NCBI RefSeq assembly: GCF_017312365.1
Contig: NZ_BLJI01000009.1
Span: 1-64,000 of the forward strand
Direction: 5' to 3'
Origin: Chroococcus sp. FPU101
Lineage (GTDB): Bacteria > Cyanobacteriota > Cyanobacteriia > Cyanobacteriales > Microcystaceae
DNA: 64,000 nt
Part shown: positions 1,256 to 28,579 of the stretch, piece after piece
Layout of the letters: each line of letters starts with the position of its first letter
Numbering within the stretch: the stretch's first letter is position 1
Notes under the pieces: generated by a model
The model's input: the letters and a program-made list of their open reading frames with translations, nothing else
What the model was told of the DNA's origin: nothing
Databases searched by the model: none
Position numbers and translations under genes: made by a program

Positions 1256-1450
1256 ATGTCCCTTCAACTAACTGTACCTAATATGGCTTGTTCTGCTTGT
1301 GGAGATACTATCACTAAAGCGATTCAAAAAATTGATGCCAACGCAACAGTAAAAGCAGATCCAAAAACCAAATTAGTCAGTGTTGACACCTCAGCATCTC
1401 CTACCGAAATTAAACAAGCGATTCAAAATGCGGGCTATACCATTACATAA
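1256..1450 (+). CDS. atx1: Copper metallochaperone (Atx1/CopZ type)
   Basis: A 64-residue heavy-metal-associated (HMA) domain protein. The metal site is NMACSAC near residues 9-15 (MxCxxC), which binds Cu(I) through its two cysteines. The family has a ferredoxin-like beta-alpha-beta fold, and the length is that of a free chaperone. Its partner should be the P-type ATPase encoded 11 bases downstream, whose N-terminal HMA domain would receive the copper for thylakoid delivery to plastocyanin and cytochrome oxidase. A good ribosome binding site, AAGGAG at 1241-1246, fixes the ATG start. Co-transcription with the ATPase is very likely. The pairing of Atx1 with PacS is known from Synechocystis, although there the genes are not always adjacent. 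Confidence 0.88.
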
Positions 1451-1461
1451 AGGAGGCTAAA

Positions 1462-3723
1462 GTGGAAAATGCTACCCTCAAACTGCGTGGGATGAGTTGT
1501 GCTTCCTGTGCGAGTAATATCGAAAATGTTATTCGTTCTGTTGCGGGTGTTGAAAGGTGTTACGTTAATTTTGGAGCCGAACAAGCAACGGTTACTTATG
1601 ACTCTAATCAAACTAGCGTAGCAGATATTCAAAGTGCAGTGGATGAAGCGGGTTACTCTGCACAACCGATCCAAGATGATCGACTGGATATAGAAGATGA
1701 TAGCGAAAAACGGACACGACAAGCTGAAAATCGTGATCTAACCCGTAAAGTTTGGCTGAGTGGCATGATTAGTAGCATCCTCTTCATTGGTTCACTTTCT
1801 GCAATGACAGGTTTACCAATTCCTCTCATCCCAATGTGGCTACATCATCCATTGTTACAGCTTATCTTAACTGTACCTGTGCTGTTTTGGGCGGGTCGTT
1901 CTTTTTTTATTAATGCTTGGAAGTCTTTGAAACGTCGTACCGCAACGATGGATACTCTTGTTGCACTCGGTACTGGTGTAGCATTTTTATATTCACTTTT
2001 TCCGACTTTCTTTCCTCAATGGTTTATTACTCAAAATATCGAACCAGATGTCTATTTTGAGGCAGCATCAGTCATTATTACTCTCATCTTATTAGGAAAA
2101 CTCCTAGAAAATCGTGCTAGGGGACAAACGTCAGAAGCAATTCGTCAATTAATCGGTTTACAAGCAAAAACGGCTAGAATCATTCGCAATGGACAAGAAT
2201 ATGATGTACCGATCGCTGATGTTATTTTAAATGATCTGATCCTAGTTCGTCCAGGTGAAAAGATTCCTGTAGATGGGGAAATTGTTGAAGGTTCATCCAC
2301 CATTGATGAAGCGATGGTAACAGGTGAAAGTCTTCCAGTAAAAAAACAAGCAGGTGATGAGGTGATCGGTGCGACACTGAATAAAACGGGTAGTTTTAAA
2401 TTTCGAGCAACACGAATCGGAAAAAATACATTTTTAGCGCAAATTGTCAAGCTCGTCCAACAAGCCCAAAGATCAAAAGCACCCATTCAAAGATTAGCGG
2501 ATCAAGTAACAGGTTGGTTTGTCCCTGTTGTGATTACTATTGCTCTTGTGACGTTTATCTTTTGGTTTGTTTTCATGGGTAATTTAACAATCGCTTTAAT
2601 CACCACAGTCGATGTTTTAATTATTGCTTGTCCCTGTGCGTTGGGTTTGGCGACACCTACATCCATCATGGTAGGAACGGGAAAGGGTGCAGAGAATGGA
2701 ATCCTGATTAAAGGTGCAGAAAGTCTAGAATTAGCCCATAAAATCCAAACGATCGTATTTGATAAAACAGGCACGATTACCCAAGGTAAACCGACTGTGA
2801 CCGATTTTATTACACTTAAAGGTATAGCTAATCACAATGAGTTAAATCTTCTACGTCTAGCGGCTTCAGTCGAACACGATTCAGAACATCCTTTAGCAGA
2901 AGCGATCGTACAATATGCCCAATCCCAAGGCGTTGAGTTAGCGAATGTTCAGTCTTTTGAAGCGGTTACAGGAAGTGGTGTACAAGGATTTGTCCGAAAT
3001 AAATTAGTACAAATTGGCACACAGAGATGGTTTAAAGAATTAGGAATCAATACAAACGAATTACAACAGGATTGGGAACGTTTGGAATTTCTCGGTAAAA
3101 CGGTTGTCGGGATGGCTGTCGATGGACAAATTGAAGCCATTATGGGAATTGCCGACGCGGTTAAACCCTCCTCCGCTAGTGCCATTCGGAATTTACAACG
3201 GATGGGTTTCAAGGTGGTGATGCTGACAGGTGATAACTATCGAACTGCCGAAGCGATCGCATCATTAGTCGGTATTAGAAAGATTATCGCAGAAGTACGA
3301 CCCGATCAAAAAGCCGCACAAATCGAAAAACTACAGAAAAAAAGAAAGATCGTGGCAATGGTGGGAGATGGCATTAATGATGCACCAGCCTTAGCTCAAG
3401 CCGATGTCGGTATTGCGATTGGAACTGGAACCGATGTCGCTATTGCTGCTAGTGATCTTACTTTAATTTCAGGTGATCTACAAGGGATTGTGACAGCGAT
3501 TCAGTTATCTAAGGCTACAATCTCCAATATCCGACAAAATCTATTTTTTGCTTTTATTTATAATGTAATCGGTATTCCGATCGCTGCTGGTGTTCTAATT
3601 CCTTTTTTTGGATGGTCATTGAGTCCTATGATCGCAGGAACAGCAATGGCGTTTAGTTCTGTATCGGTTGTTACTAATGCTCTACGACTACGGAATTTTC
3701 GACCCAAAATTATCTTGAATTGA
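1462..3723 (+). CDS. pacS: Copper-transporting P1B-type ATPase PacS
   Basis: A 753-residue P1B ATPase that moves Cu(I) across a membrane using ATP. The order is N-terminal HMA domain with GMSCASC at residues 10-16, transmembrane helices from about residue 90, actuator motif TGES, the ion-site motif CPC at 390-392, the phosphorylated Asp in DKTGT at 434, the SEHPLA nucleotide motif, TGDN at 589 and GDGIND at 635-640. All catalytic motifs are intact. The sequence after the HMA domain (VNFGAEQA) and the region [11 protein letters not shown] resemble PacS, the thylakoid enzyme, more than CtaA. The start is GTG with AGGAGG at 1451-1456. It sits directly behind the chaperone gene, so the two form a copper delivery operon. 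CtaA remains the alternative. Confidence 0.9.
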
Positions 3724-24427: not shown

Positions 24428-25432
24428 ATGATTCGTGCTTACGCTGCCTCTGAACCAGGGGGCGAGTTAACTCCTTTTGAATATGATCCAGGGCCACTAG
24501 GGGATGAAGATGTAGAAATTCAAGTCGAGTACTGTGGCATTTGTCATAGCGATCTGAGTATGCTCGATAATGAATGGGGTATAACTCAATACCCTTTTGT
24601 CCCTGGTCATGAAGTCGTCGGAACAATTACAGCAACGGGAACTAGAGTTAAAGATCGACAAATCGGACAGCGCGTCGGTTTAGGTTGGTTTTCCAGTTCT
24701 TGTATGGGGTGTGAGTGGTGTATGTCAGGAAACCACAACCTTTGTTTGACCGCAGAAGGTACAATTGTTGGTCGCCATGGGGGTTTTGCGGATCGAGTTC
24801 GCGCCCATCACAGTTGGACAACTCCTTTAAATGATGGCATTGATCCAGCCAAAGCTGGCCCTCTATTCTGTGGCGGAATTACGGTTTTTAATCCGATTGT
24901 ACAGTTTGATATTAAACCAACCGATCATGTGGGTGTTATTGGAATTGGTGGTTTAGGTCACATGGCGTTACGGTTCTTAAAAGCTTGGGGATGTGAGGTA
25001 ACTGCTTTTTCGGGTAGTCCAGATAAAGAAGTCGAAGCTAAGGAATTAGGCGCAACTCATTTTGTAAATTCCCGTGATCCAGAAGCCCTCAAAGCGATCG
25101 CTAGTTCTTTAGATATGATTCTTTCTACGGTTAGCGCGGATCTTTCTTGGGCTGACTATTTAGCTACCCTACGTCCTAAAGGTCGTTTACACGTTGTTGG
25201 TGTTGCCCCCAATCCTCTTTCATTTCAGGTTTTTCCGATGATTTTAGGTCAAAAATCGATTTCGGGTAGTCCCCTGGGCAGTCCTACAACCGTTGGTAAA
25301 ATGTTAGACTTTGCGGCTAGACATGGTGTAGAACCGATTACAGAAATGTTTCCTATTTCTCAGGTAAATGAAGCTCTCAATAAACTCCGCCATGGTAGCC
25401 CTCGATATCGCCTTGTTTTAAAAGTTTCCTAA
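24428..25432 (+). CDS. adhA: Zinc-dependent NADP(H) alcohol dehydrogenase
   Basis: A 334-residue medium-chain dehydrogenase of the cinnamyl-alcohol/YahK group. The catalytic zinc ligands are Cys in YCGICHSDLS and His-Glu in PGHEVVG. The structural zinc Cys residues are in CMGCEWCMSGNHNLC, and the nucleotide-binding loop is GIGGLGHMA. The sequence resembles Synechocystis Slr1192, the enzyme reported to reduce aldehydes to alcohols. The gene is preceded by a terminator and stands alone. The natural substrate is not known; aldehyde detoxification is the usual suggestion. Confidence 0.88.
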   Translation: MIRAYAASEPGGELTPFEYDPGPLGDEDVEIQVEYCGICHSDLSMLDNEWGITQYPFVPGHEVVGTITATGTRVKDRQIGQRVGLGWFSSSCMGCEWCMSGNHNLCLTAEGTIVGRHGGFADRVRAHHSWTTPLNDGIDPAKAGPLFCGGITVFNPIVQFDIKPTDHVGVIGIGGLGHMALRFLKAWGCEVTAFSGSPDKEVEAKELGATHFVNSRDPEALKAIASSLDMILSTVSADLSWADYLATLRPKGRLHVVGVAPNPLSFQVFPMILGQKSISGSPLGSPTTVGKMLDFAARHGVEPITEMFPISQVNEALNKLRHGSPRYRLVLKVS

Positions 25433-25435
25433 TGA

Positions 25436-26380
25436 CTAGCGACTTTTGGCCACTTCTTTTGCTCTTGTGGCCGAAGGTGCGCTTAAACTGCGAGAATAGA
25501 AAGCCCACGCTGTCCCCAAAAAACCGAGATAAGCAGCAATCTGTACTAAATATAAGCGATCGGTATATCCAAATAAACTACTTAAAAGAAACCCTGGAAA
25601 TCGATCAACTGGTAATACTTTTTCTAAATTCCAAACCATCGGGCCTAATACACAAGAATGCACTTTTGTAAAGCGTCCATAGAAAAAACAAAGGCTTTCT
25701 GAGTTTCGATCAATCTGCGATAGTGTTGACATTGCCGAATCAAATAAACCTAAAGCAGTTACGACTAAGCCCGCAACAATAAACAGTAGGATAATGCCCA
25801 TAATCTGGAAAAAACGGCGTAAATTAATCCGAATTCCCCATTTAAAGAGAGCCACACCTACGCCTGATGCTGTCAGTAAACCACCAATTGCACCTAAAGC
25901 AGCAGGGATACTTTCGCTTAATTTTGCTGTGATAAAAAGAACCGTTTCAAATCCTTCTCTAAGGACGGCAATAAAAATCAGACTGAAAATACCCCATTTA
26001 GAACTATTTTCCGATTTTAAGGATTGATTGACGGCTCCTTCAATTTGCCCTTTGAGGTGCCGACTCTGTTTTGTCATCCAAATCAGCATCCAACTGAGTA
26101 AAATAATCGCCAAGACGCTGAAACTTGCTTCTAACAAAGGTTCAACGACGGGGGCATAGGTTTTGTTAGCCGATTGCAAGGCATACATCAACTGACTCAA
26201 AAGTACGCCAAGCATCGCACTCGCCGTGATCGCAGTTCCTACTGCTGTCCAAACCCAGATATTAAGCTGACTACGATCTGATTTTTTGAGATAAGCAAGG
26301 ACAATACCAACAACGAGAGCCGCTTCTACACCTTCTCGAAGGGTAATAACAAAAGTGGGTAATGCAGAACTCCAATTCAT
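25436..26380 (-). CDS. FTR1-family iron permease
   Basis: A 314-residue membrane protein with about seven transmembrane helices. Two copies of the iron-binding REXXE motif are seen: TLREGVEAALVVGI near residue 15 and VLREGFETVLFI near 140. FTR1/EfeU permeases import iron, in yeast after a multicopper oxidase makes Fe(III). Here the gene is the last of three on the minus strand, 45 bases behind the HhH lipoprotein and downstream of a multicopper oxidase, so oxidase-coupled iron uptake is a natural reading. The stop lies three bases from the convergent adhA stop. Lead or other divalent metals are an alternative cargo in the family. Confidence 0.9.
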   Translation of the reverse strand: MNWSSALPTFVITLREGVEAALVVGIVLAYLKKSDRSQLNIWVWTAVGTAITASAMLGVLLSQLMYALQSANKTYAPVVEPLLEASFSVLAIILLSWMLIWMTKQSRHLKGQIEGAVNQSLKSENSSKWGIFSLIFIAVLREGFETVLFITAKLSESIPAALGAIGGLLTASGVGVALFKWGIRINLRRFFQIMGIILLFIVAGLVVTALGLFDSAMSTLSQIDRNSESLCFFYGRFTKVHSCVLGPMVWNLEKVLPVDRFPGFLLSSLFGYTDRLYLVQIAAYLGFLGTAWAFYSRSLSAPSATRAKEVAKSR

Positions 26381-26425
26381 GTTTTTTAGTCGTCAAATTA
26401 GGAAAAATACGGGTAAATAAGGATT

Positions 26426-27472
26426 CTAAGACGGAGGGATAACCACACTTTGGCTATTTTGCTCAATTTTTTTAACTAATTGAGTGACTTCATCAGGTGT
26501 TTTGACAGGGGCGGCAGGTGCAACCACTTCTGGCCATGCTTTAGCTAATTCTGCCATTGTTGTCATCATGGTTTGATGCGCTTCGGGGTGTTCTTTTTCC
26601 ATTTGAGGGGCGATCGTTTTATATAGGTCTTGTGCGTAAATGACGAAGCCTCGTGAATCTTGATATTCAATGATTTGAGAAATTTTACCATCGGCTATAG
26701 CCGCAGTATATTCAGCGTTGGCGGTTTCTAAAAGACCGTTAATCACTTGTAAAACAAAACTTGGTGACTGACGTTGTGTTTCGGGTAAAGCAGCGATCGC
26801 AGTTTGAATACTGGATATTGAGCCTTTAAACTCGGTTCCGACTTTTGTTGTGTCTTTTGCTCCCGCTTTGACTAAATCTTGTAATGCGATTAAGCTTCCT
26901 TTAAATTCTGGTACATTGCGTTCGTTAAGTTGATCTTCGACATCTGCATAAATTTCTTCTACGGGATGTCCGATATGAGGTTCAGCTTGATCGGGTTTTT
27001 TCAAATCTAAAAGTTCTTTAGCCACTATCATATGACCTTTCATTAAACCGAGTTTGGTCATATAATCTACGTCTTTAGCTTCTCCTGTCAGAACAATATC
27101 TTGAATTGTGACCATCTCTTTGATTTGATCGTATTGTTCTTGTGTGATCACATTTTTAGAAACCAGTTCCTCAGTATTTCCATAGGGGCGACTGGCTTGT
27201 ATTTTATTGGATAATGCAGGAACACCTAATTTTGCTTCTAACTTATCTAACTCAGATAAAATCGCGCTATTAATATTAATTTTTTTGCCCCCGTGCATCG
27301 AATGATCCATCTCAGTCGGAGAACTAGTAGTCGTCGGAGCCGATGAGGTGGTTGAGTTATTCGATGTATTGTTACTACAGCCCGTGAAAGCCATCAAACT
27401 GGTAACAAGAGTTATTGCAGATATGGAGCGTAAATACTTTTGAGAAATCATCATCATAACAGTTAGAGTCAT
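26426..27472 (-). CDS. Lipoprotein with HhH module and Met/His-rich segment, iron uptake partner
   Basis: A predicted lipoprotein of about 348 residues. A hydrophobic signal (AITLVTSLMAFTGC) is followed by a Ser/Thr linker, the Met/His-rich DHSMHGGKK, and a helix-hairpin-helix module (ININSAILSELDKLEAKLG to TQEQYDQIKEMV) like that of ComEA or PsbU. The remaining 230 residues are helical with conserved His and Glu (KGHMIVAKELL, HIGHPVEEIY) and recall the imelysin/EfeO-type metal-binding domain. It lies between a multicopper oxidase and an FTR1 permease, so a metal-delivery role is inferred. ComEA-like DNA binding is unlikely for this context. Several starts are possible (27484 TTG, 27472, 27457). 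Confidence 0.72.
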   Translation of the reverse strand: MTLTVMMMISQKYLRSISAITLVTSLMAFTGCSNNTSNNSTTSSAPTTTSSPTEMDHSMHGGKKININSAILSELDKLEAKLGVPALSNKIQASRPYGNTEELVSKNVITQEQYDQIKEMVTIQDIVLTGEAKDVDYMTKLGLMKGHMIVAKELLDLKKPDQAEPHIGHPVEEIYADVEDQLNERNVPEFKGSLIALQDLVKAGAKDTTKVGTEFKGSISSIQTAIAALPETQRQSPSFVLQVINGLLETANAEYTAAIADGKISQIIEYQDSRGFVIYAQDLYKTIAPQMEKEHPEAHQTMMTTMAELAKAWPEVVAPAAPVKTPDEVTQLVKKIEQNSQSVVIPPS

Positions 27473-27574
27473 AAAAATTTTCAATAGGAAGAATAGTATA
27501 TCCTAAAATACACTTTAATTTTTTGAGAAGCTTTATCAATTAAACAAAATTTTATCTTTTTTGCCTTAAGTTGT

Positions 27575-28579
27575 TTACTCTCGAACGTCAAAATAACCCA
27601 TACAACCTTCTTCAGCAATTAGATCTTGATGGGGGTGGAACATAAACTTACCAGTGTAGGGATAGCTCAATTCTAAGATATGCCGTTCAGCAGTTCCCAT
27701 GGTAATCACATCCGTTTCTTCAGTGGGGGTTAAGGTACGTCCTGTACGATACACTTGGAACATATTGGCATGAACATGAAATGTTGCTACAGGGTCAAAT
27801 TCAATCATATTCAAGACATACAACCGAATCAGTTGATCTTTCCAAACGGGGATCGGATGGTGCATATAATAATCGGGTAACCCATTAAACGCATAGAGTT
27901 CATTTTTTTGATCATCATCAATGTCATAACCTGCCATGATTAAAACCATCTCATCGGCTGGGGGTCTGGGTTCTGGCGGATCGATAATAAACATTCCATA
28001 AAGACCTTTGCTGATATGGCGCGTTACAGGTGCAATATGACAGTGATACAAATGAACGCCATAGGGCTTGGCATCAAATTCGTAGATAAAAACTGAACCA
28101 TTTCTGACGGGGCGCACTCCATCCATATTCGCCTCATGGATGCCGTGAAAGTGCAGAGAGTGGGAGTGTCCACCCGCTTTATTATAGAAAATGACCCGAA
28201 TGCGATCGCCTTCTGTTGCCCTAAAAGTTGGGCCAGGTACTTGTCCATTGAGGTTCCAAGTAATAAACGTCACAGCTTCATTCAGTTTGACAGGGGTTGT
28301 ACGGGCTTCTACCCTAAATTCTCGAATTTTACGACCATTTTCTTCAATAATCTTGCCATAATCGAAATGACGAGCGAAAGCTAGGGGATTAATCCCAATT
28401 GATTCGATTTTGGTCGTGTCGGATATTTCGGGAATCGGTACTATTTTACGTTGAGTCGGTTGTAAAGCCTTAAGTCCAACGGCTGTGCCGACTGCACCTA
28501 CTCCTGTAACAAGTCCCCATTTGAGAAACTGGCGACGATTTCCTTTAATTAACTTGGTGAGATCTTGAGAATTAAACAT
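27575..28579 (-). CDS. Two-domain multicopper oxidase (putative ferroxidase)
   Basis: A 334-residue exported oxidase with two cupredoxin domains. A twin-arginine-like signal, NRRQFLKWGLVTGVGAVG, begins at residue 14. Domain 1 has HFH at 143-145 and the type 1/type 3 cluster H179-C180-H181 with His188 and Met196. Domain 2 has H268-V-H270 and H315-P-H317 but no Cys in HCH, so the type 1 copper is in domain 1 only. This matches the two-domain type that assembles into trimers. As the first gene of an operon with an HhH lipoprotein and FTR1, it is probably an Fe(II) oxidase. Nitrite reductase or laccase activity is the alternative. Confidence 0.85.
   Translation of the reverse strand: MFNSQDLTKLIKGNRRQFLKWGLVTGVGAVGTAVGLKALQPTQRKIVPIPEISDTTKIESIGINPLAFARHFDYGKIIEENGRKIREFRVEARTTPVKLNEAVTFITWNLNGQVPGPTFRATEGDRIRVIFYNKAGGHSHSLHFHGIHEANMDGVRPVRNGSVFIYEFDAKPYGVHLYHCHIAPVTRHISKGLYGMFIIDPPEPRPPADEMVLIMAGYDIDDDQKNELYAFNGLPDYYMHHPIPVWKDQLIRLYVLNMIEFDPVATFHVHANMFQVYRTGRTLTPTEETDVITMGTAERHILELSYPYTGKFMFHPHQDLIAEEGCMGYFDVRE

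Follow-up and report, generated by a model that had tools for sequence, protein, structure and literature searches.

What is the role of a multicopper oxidase gene that stands beside genes for a lipoprotein and an FTR1-family permease in a cyanobacterium? The question is raised by a locus of Chroococcus sp. FPU101 on contig NZ_BLJI01000009.1 (assembly GCF_017312365.1), of which positions 1 to 64,000, hereafter called the window, were analysed. The multicopper oxidase and the lipoprotein are referred to as MCO and MID. We consider it reasonably probable that the three genes specify an oxidation-coupled iron importer, in which MCO would be the ferroxidase, MID an iron-handling partner in the place of EfeO, and FTR1 the Fe(III) permease. 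The genes are as follows.

27575-28579, minus strand: MCO gene (multicopper oxidase), 334 amino acids
26426-27484, minus strand: MID gene (lipoprotein), 352 amino acids
25436-26380, minus strand: FTR1 permease gene, 314 amino acids

Conserved gene order, oxidase and permease

On either side of the trio lie a zinc-type alcohol dehydrogenase gene, convergent with it, and a GAF-domain gene. Its members are separated by gaps of 90 bases (MCO to MID) and 45 bases (MID to FTR1), given a TTG start for MID; an earlier sequence-only reading of this DNA had described three same-strand genes with these gaps, and the open reading frame coordinates (25436-28579) bear it out. The genes likely form one operon; some doubt comes from the 90-base gap, which contains a Fur-like box and a -35-like hexamer.

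The same reading had proposed a search for this order across cyanobacteria. A MID alignment was compared with 84,980 species genomes, 335 relatives were confirmed, and the best 80 loci were kept. FTR1 lies downstream of MID on the same strand in 78 of the 80 loci, MCO lies upstream in 72, and both are in place in 70. The MCO-MID-FTR1 order is therefore widely conserved in cyanobacteria and is not a peculiarity of this strain. In addition, a 144-residue ferritin-like gene (PF00210) is found within 3.5 kb downstream in 44 of the 80. A phylum sample of 292 genomes was also searched with the three proteins; matches were found to MID in 52 genomes, to FTR1 in 89, and to MCO in 71 at E 1e-3 or 47 at E 1e-100 or better. 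Among the 47 genomes with a close MCO, 46 have a MID match, the exception being G193. Cyanobacterial titles are carried by 79 of the best 80 of the 335 loci. The remaining one, L176 (JACCVJ010000527.1), titled as a metagenome-assembled genome of the gammaproteobacterial Tatlockia sp., holds a complete cyanobacterial-type MCO-MID-ferritin-FTR1 cluster and is probably mis-binned.

MCO contains two cupredoxin domains by Pfam (Cu-oxidase_3, 77.9 bits; Cu-oxidase_2, 86 bits), and its closest solved proteins are multicopper oxidases of similar length (3gdc, E 1e-86; 7rab, E 8.1e-75). Type 1 (T1) copper ligands are present in domain 1 only (H140, C180 and H188, with L193 as the axial residue); domain 2 has HPH where the T1 domain has HCH, and the T1 Cys is missing. 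The trinuclear site comprises eight His (H143, H145, H179, H181, H268, H270, H315 and H317). These are the roles that we take the residues to have by analogy to motifs of multicopper oxidases and nitrite reductases. The T1 ligands, the axial L193 and the eight His are invariant in all 19 aligned MCOs. Because domain 2 is without the T1 Cys, MCO has, on these assignments, a two-domain type C layout with T1 in domain 1; the sequence-only reading had likewise seen a two-domain oxidase with type 1 copper in domain 1, in agreement with Pfam and the ligand positions. A copper nitrite reductase was ruled out by HCH in domain 1, HPH in domain 2 and the full trinuclear set. The signal for the twin-arginine translocation (TAT) pathway, with RR at 15-16, scores 20 bits, below the cut-off of 22.7, and suggests folding or copper loading ahead of export. 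Within the genome, Cu-oxidase_2 is matched by no frame other than that of MCO (at two places in it), and a search of the genome with the MCO protein gave no second match. We propose that MCO is a ferroxidase.

Multicopper oxidases are promiscuous, and MCO might instead be a copper-detoxifying cuprous oxidase or a general laccase like CueO, its proximity to FTR1 reflecting joint metal stress. An Atx1/PacS-like pair in the window (1268-3723) and a weak match of MCO to the NCBIfam copper-resistance oxidase model (55 bits, cut-off 479) would fit such a role. However, FTR1, ferritins, FeoA, FutA-like and PiuC-type genes recur beside MCO, no copper exporter was noticed in the loci read, where most neighbours are unannotated, and the MCO alignment, judged by eye, has no Met-rich insert such as CueO has. 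We regard this explanation as decidedly unlikely. The sequence-only reading had the Atx1/PacS pair supply copper to the oxidase; the pair exists, but this role is not supported: it lies about 22 kb from the trio, and its nearness says little because contig C6 carries a second such pair and C11 a third HMA frame.

FTR1 matches PF03239 with E 3.3e-60 (204 bits, cut-off 25.3). It carries the two REXXE motifs that had been noticed earlier, REGVE (15-19) and REGFE (141-145), whose REG and final E are invariant in 11 of 11 aligned permeases. Assignment of FTR1 as an EfeU equivalog (NF041756) was rejected at 194.3 bits, below the cut-off of 255. The second FTR1 of the genome, on contig C2 (G000 C2:28768-29679, L001), is about 48% identical and follows a 145-residue ferritin-like gene; the same order of ferritin-like gene and FTR1 is seen within the MCO-MID cluster of Nostoc-type loci. 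The profiles of M75 (EfeO; 0 matches) and DyP (EfeB; Dyp_perox_N) found nothing in the genome. FeoB_C found no match there either, a weak negative given that, of 14 control genomes, 7 were matched by this model, and that Synechococcus elongatus was not matched. Since neither M75 nor DyP is matched in the genome, MCO and MID are the candidates at hand.

The lipoprotein MID and its HHH domain

MID is divided as follows, HHH standing for helix-hairpin-helix; the evidence for each domain is given in brackets.

26426-27484, minus strand: MID, with lipobox Cys36, HSMHGG stretch, HHH domain and two-bundle helical domain
27287-27310, minus strand: Met/His stretch, M59-D-H-S-M-H-G-G66 (sequence)
27110-27286, minus strand: HHH (PsbU-like) domain, residues 67-125 (HHH_3, Foldseek)
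26429-27094, minus strand: C-terminal two-bundle domain, residues 131-352 (AlphaFold2, Foldseek)

No Pfam match of MID exceeds its cut-off, the nearest being HHH_3 at residues 67-125 (E 2.6e-5, 24.7 bits, cut-off 27). The AlphaFold2 model of the whole protein has a mean pLDDT of 85.1, and that of residues 131-352 a mean pLDDT of 95.5 and a pTM of 0.92. In a Foldseek search of the PDB, the PsbU chains of 4yuu match the HHH part at ranks 6 and 9 (probability 0.98 and 0.96, E about 1). As modelled, MID is a PsbU-like HHH domain joined to a two-bundle domain, a description that is new in this analysis; the HHH domain (67-125) had been overlooked in the sequence-only reading. The Met/His-rich stretch reported there is present (M59-H64), but it is short; an HSxHGG-like core recurs in HHH-type relatives, and the Met is mostly not kept.

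EfeO and EfeM chains occupy Foldseek ranks 1-3 with the whole-MID and domain models alike (E 0.02-0.09, query TM-scores 0.28-0.45). For the domain 131-352 the order is EfeO, EfeM, EfeO and, at rank 4, Algp7, which stands at rank 5 for whole MID; across both models the values are E 0.02-0.4 and TM 0.26-0.45. Unrelated helical proteins come close behind EfeO/EfeM (8bw8_F, probability 0.94). VIA-align of both models returned generic helical bundles, with EfeO/EfeM not in the best 50 rows. Meanwhile, a profile search of the PDB sequences gave designed helical repeats as best matches and did not find EfeO, the PHROGs search gave nothing useful, and M75 is not among the Pfam matches of MID up to E 1. 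By hhalign, the whole MID alignment matches EfeO/M75 weakly (probability 16.6, E 0.0015), the set of MIDs that lack the HHH domain matches at a probability of 4.7 when used alone, and MID against imelysins gives 0.6; the control, EfeO against imelysin, gives 98.2. Trimming of both sides to the helical domain gave a score of 19.6, compared with a mean of 13.8 and a maximum of 20.6 in 150 column shuffles and with 16.5 on reversal. MID as a proven M75/EfeO homologue was rejected for now, as 19.6 lies under the shuffle maximum and the probability is 16.6.

The C-terminal domain has the motifs KGH151, EPH170IGH173PVEE177 and EYQDSRG (273-279) in conserved columns, and its conserved candidate metal ligands are H151, H170, H173, E177, E258, E273 and D276. 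Site III of EfeM is described, in the text available of PMC9174327, as an HXXE motif plus a GEEDRY loop. MID has H173-P-V-E176 and EYQDSRG in similar order; the profile alignment sets GKISQIIEYQD of MID beside GKITGEEERYS, but at a probability of 16.6 it is too weak to establish that the motifs correspond. MID may thus work like an EfeM. The sequence-only proposal that MID replaces EfeO is plausible in view of the three top Foldseek ranks, but homology was not borne out by hhalign.

Two further features were seen. A GGEGGEGG repeat linker is common to MID, EfeO-type and imelysin-type proteins (L193:7764, L198:1024, L199:1183, L201:1222) and is also present in L093, L096, L098, L099 and L102; several of these proteins have a leader like KxKLWxGIGAxLL, and some stand beside a PiuC-type gene. 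Linker and leader may be a sorting signal shared by periplasmic proteins that deal with iron. Single in-frame stops interrupt some MID or MCO frames (G153:C91:11512-12501, G143:C3:1520686-1521330, G083:C1:2830017-2830658 and others), and these copies may be decaying, mis-sequenced or read through past the gene end.

The linkage of the HHH domain with FTR1 was counted in 48 MID rows from the phylum sample, six partial rows being omitted. Among MIDs matching into the HHH region, 32 of 33 have FTR1 within 8 kb downstream, and the single miss, in G048, is situated 793 bases short of the end of its contig; one more such MID, the 34th, is divided by the circular join in G231 and is also followed by FTR1. 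None of the 14 MIDs matching only from residue 127-138 on has FTR1 within that distance (four of these genomes are without any FTR1 match and ten have FTR1 elsewhere), and MCO stands within 500 bases upstream of 11 of them. Absence of the HHH domain was read from the sequence in 10 of the 14 and from the match range alone in G054, G083, G116 and G175, and the contigs of G172 and G116 are short. Because the HHH type falls on one side of a branch (support 98/96) in a tree of 28 rows, HHH gain and FTR1 linkage may have been one event. The family of the window's own genome is mixed, with G000, G014 and G133 of the HHH/FTR1 type and G143 and G105 of the HHH-less type. A testable rule follows: where the HHH domain is present, an FTR1 partner is expected.

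The genes beside HHH-less MCO-MID pairs include PKHD/PiuC-type hydroxylases (G172 by Pfam; G070, G058 and G211 by eye), FeoA with an OprB-type porin and a FutA-like binding protein (G143 by Pfam; G105 by eye), OprB-type porins (G175 by Pfam; G181 by eye) and two ferritin-like genes (G058, one by Pfam; G211 by eye). By family knowledge, FTR1, FeoA, ferritin, FutA-like and PiuC-type proteins are iron proteins. Distant MIDs are found on plasmids, directly before an FTR1 family protein in Deinococcus taeanensis, before an Fe2+-dependent dioxygenase in Roseovarius indicus, and before a MauG-type di-haem peroxidase with a C-terminal cupredoxin, unlike MCO or DyP, in Indioceanicola profundi (L193:8655-10004).

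A wider reading, tentative and in our view rather doubtful, is that cyanobacterial MCO and MID make up a movable ferroxidase cassette (oxidase plus iron carrier) for different importers, with HHH as the FTR1 adaptor. The adaptor, with the PsbU fold of photosystem II, would create an oxidase-carrier-permease relay that passes on nascent Fe(III) without releasing it, and the HHH-less versions would serve Fut, Feo or porin routes. On this reading the carrier family would also act in Alphaproteobacteria with a di-haem peroxidase-cupredoxin, and in Deinococcus with FTR1 and no adjoining MCO.

Fur-family-like boxes and the metal carried

The 7-1-7 Fur-family consensus is TGATAATNATTATCA. Upstream regions in the 80 loci (300 bases plus the first 30 of the longest frame, both strands) were scanned for it with up to 3 mismatches. 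Boxes were found before MCO in 48/66 cases, MID in 45/78, FTR1 in 0/82, ferritin-like genes in 4/45 and other genes in 39/444; in regions with an AT fraction of at least 0.58 the counts are 43/52, 43/67, 0/45, 2/34 and 35/258. Fur-family-like boxes are thus enriched before MCO and MID in the relatives, in loci that are related and AT-rich and with control and FTR1 regions that may include coding DNA. The published Anabaena FurA 19-mer (PMC4005646, text available in part), allowed up to 6 mismatches, occurs before MCO in 49/66, MID in 58/78, FTR1 in 10/82, ferritin-like genes in 32/45 and other genes in 160/444. The window has the following candidate.

27524-27538, minus strand: Fur-family-like 7-1-7 box TGATAAAGCTTCTCA (within TTGATAAAGCTTCTCAA) in the MCO-MID gap, 3 mismatches to TGATAATNATTATCA

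A -35-like TTGATA starting at 27539 overlaps this box, in a region where promoter-like matches are few above chance (14 versus 9.3 expected, standard deviation 3.4). In the nearest relative, L113, TTGAAAATTATTGTCAA stands at about 55 bases upstream of MID. A 24-base inverted-repeat motif derived from k-mers was dropped, as it did not fit most loci. The candidate box could serve Fur, Zur or PerR.

This breadth leaves room for another proposal, namely that the system handles one or more other metals (Co/Ni, Mn, Zn or Cu), with a regulator of the Zur or PerR type and an FTR1 that is not iron-specific. The 7-1-7 box does not discriminate between Fur and Zur, a 7-1-7 model having been proposed for Anabaena FurB/Zur in the part available of PMC4005646, and the FurA 19-mer separates MCO from other genes less sharply. 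Of the 80 loci, 14 have CbiM/CbiQ genes, and G211 has a ZnuA/ABC-3 set. However, the recurring FTR1, FeoA, ferritin, FutA-like and PiuC-type neighbours belong to iron families, and a CbiM-type neighbour is found in a minority of the loci, compared with FTR1 in 78. We judge this proposal to be very unlikely.

The ferritin-like genes (44 of the 80 loci), the two beside MCO-MID in G058 and G211 (one checked by Pfam) and the 11 of 14 HHH-less loci with MCO-MID and no nearby FTR1 would also suit a protective role, in which MCO and MID limit Fenton chemistry by oxidising and retaining an excess of Fe(II) in the periplasm and FTR1 clears the product to ferritin. The boxes before MCO and MID suggest, on the contrary, repression when metal is ample, and the FutA-like and porin neighbours point to import. 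Such protection seems to us unlikely.

Several observations weigh against an oxidation-coupled iron importer. MCO is not upstream of MID in 8 of the 80 loci (L121, L128, L145, L146, L150, L169, L186 and L191), and FTR1 is not downstream in L148 and L168; a contig edge lies within 2.1 kb in L145, L148, L150 and L191, that is, in three of the eight loci without MCO. In G191 MCO lies at a distance of 2.4 Mb, in G101 it is on the opposite strand some 15 kb from MID, and in 11 of the 14 HHH-less loci MCO and MID are without FTR1 nearby. If MCO-MID-FTR1 with HHH arose as one evolutionary event, the counts are not independent. FTR1 falls under the NCBIfam cut-offs for EfeU and TIGR00145. No Foldseek match of MID reaches E 0.001, TM-scores with EfeO/EfeM are 0.28-0.45, and the sequence comparison with EfeO is too weak to establish homology (probability 16.6; 19.6 against a shuffle maximum of 20.6). 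The upstream region of the window's own MCO has no good box (4 mismatches). Some neighbours do not speak of iron: 14 of the 80 loci contain CbiM/CbiQ-type cobalt/nickel uptake genes, which, where read, precede MCO in divergent orientation, a ZnuA/ABC-3 set lies near the MCO-MID pair in G211, and a gene of L156 resembles a cation diffusion facilitator.

The iron system of the sequence-only reading has gained from the conserved order, the many iron neighbours and the lack of M75 and DyP matches in the genome, and has lost ground to the cobalt- and zinc-type neighbours. In the oxidation-coupled importer that we favour, TAT-exported MCO, with its T1 copper and axial Leu, would take an electron from periplasmic Fe(II), and the trinuclear site would reduce O2. 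MID, tethered by Cys36, would hold or relay the iron through its conserved His/Glu/Asp cluster, like EfeO/EfeM in EfeUOB, and FTR1 would move the fresh Fe(III) inward via its REGxE sites. The HHH domain, which in this material is confined to FTR1-linked MIDs, is probably what connects MID, together with the oxidase, to the permease. Ferroxidase activity, the direction of transport, metal binding by MID, docking by HHH and regulation by iron are what we infer from the genes and models.

Other neighbours may be recorded here. The zinc-type alcohol dehydrogenase gene of the window (24428-25432) is convergent with FTR1 and ends 3 bases from its stop; a similar gene adjoins MID in the HHH-less locus of G143 (L094:6544-7632; by eye) and FTR1 in L113. 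The CbiM/CbiQ/ATPase genes of Nostoc-type loci (L104:1656-4099, by Pfam; L165:590-5320) sometimes form two sets. In Nostoc-type loci (L106:3942-5040, L107:6040-7161 and others), OUT207 and OUT166, hydrophobic proteins of about 207 and 166 residues with spaced His and no Pfam match, are encoded between MCO and MID or beside MCO; visual inspection suggests that they might be b-type membrane cytochromes, which would make them a reductase. A different oxidase solution for FTR1 is perhaps seen in L196 (G005:C150:60935-63574), whose genome gave no MID match: FTR1 and an imelysin-type M75 protein are encoded divergently there, and a di-haem oxidoreductase (DHOR) comes after the latter.

Comparison with known systems

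The trio shares with EfeUOB/EfeUOBM an FTR1-family permease and extracytoplasmic partners, of which MID resembles EfeO/EfeM in predicted fold. It differs in that DyP and M75 are unmatched in the genome, MCO takes the place of EfeB, and MID bears an HHH domain. FtrABCD of Bordetella and Brucella likewise combines a permease of FTR1 kind, FtrC, with a proposed copper-type ferrous oxidase, FtrB, and the part available of PMC11966278 calls the ferrous oxidase unknown. In contrast, the oxidase here is a full multicopper oxidase, and no P19-, FtrB- or FtrD-like gene is found in the trio by Pfam.

In cyanobacteria, the cFTR1 of Synechocystis has been assigned to a reduction/re-oxidation uptake route (PMC7676907 and PMC11221513, citing Xu 2016; both available in part). 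In the accessible text, re-oxidation is ascribed possibly to oxygen and carriage to cFTR1, with no oxidase named (PMC7676907), and ftr1, given as both slr0964 and slr0696, is induced under iron deficiency (PMC11221513). In the present locus, by contrast, MCO and MID adjoin FTR1. The route thus has a named permease and, in that portion of PMC7676907, no named re-oxidising enzyme, for which the cluster offers a candidate. The T1 site in domain 1 is shared with two-domain type C laccase-like enzymes; a 2011 survey found type C in 8 of 8 cyanobacterial two-domain examples (PMC3192119), and the text available of that source, in which the word iron was not found and no link to FTR1 is made, refers to a transferred fragment that carries both a laccase gene and a ferrous ion transport protein. 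A cyanobacterial cluster of MCO, lipoprotein and FTR1 was not described in the titles and abstract openings searched, which covered open-licence literature, for some queries partially. The cluster provides, in cyanobacteria that can be cultivated, a widely conserved candidate ferroxidase together with a functionally uncharacterised partner protein, and, if the proposal is true, copper would be tied to iron nutrition in these organisms.

Yeast offers a parallel in logic. Fet3 is a three-domain, membrane-anchored multicopper oxidase. In Fet3p-Ftr1p, as in the trio, a multicopper oxidase with an axial Leu at T1, non-coordinating in Fet3 according to the available part of PMC11817551, is paired with an FTR1 permease bearing REGxE. 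Unlike Fet3p, MCO has two domains (334 residues, one Cu-oxidase_3 and one Cu-oxidase_2) and a TAT signal, and an extra lipoprotein is present; the match of MCO to Fet3p (1zpu) covers domain 1 only (residues 110-215, E 8.6e-12). Because no such cyanobacterial cluster appeared in the literature searched, and the oxidases are unnamed in the parts available of PMC7676907 and PMC11966278, the trio is, judged from its genes, a new version of the established oxidase-permease type, and it looks like a bacterial counterpart of the yeast iron-uptake machine.

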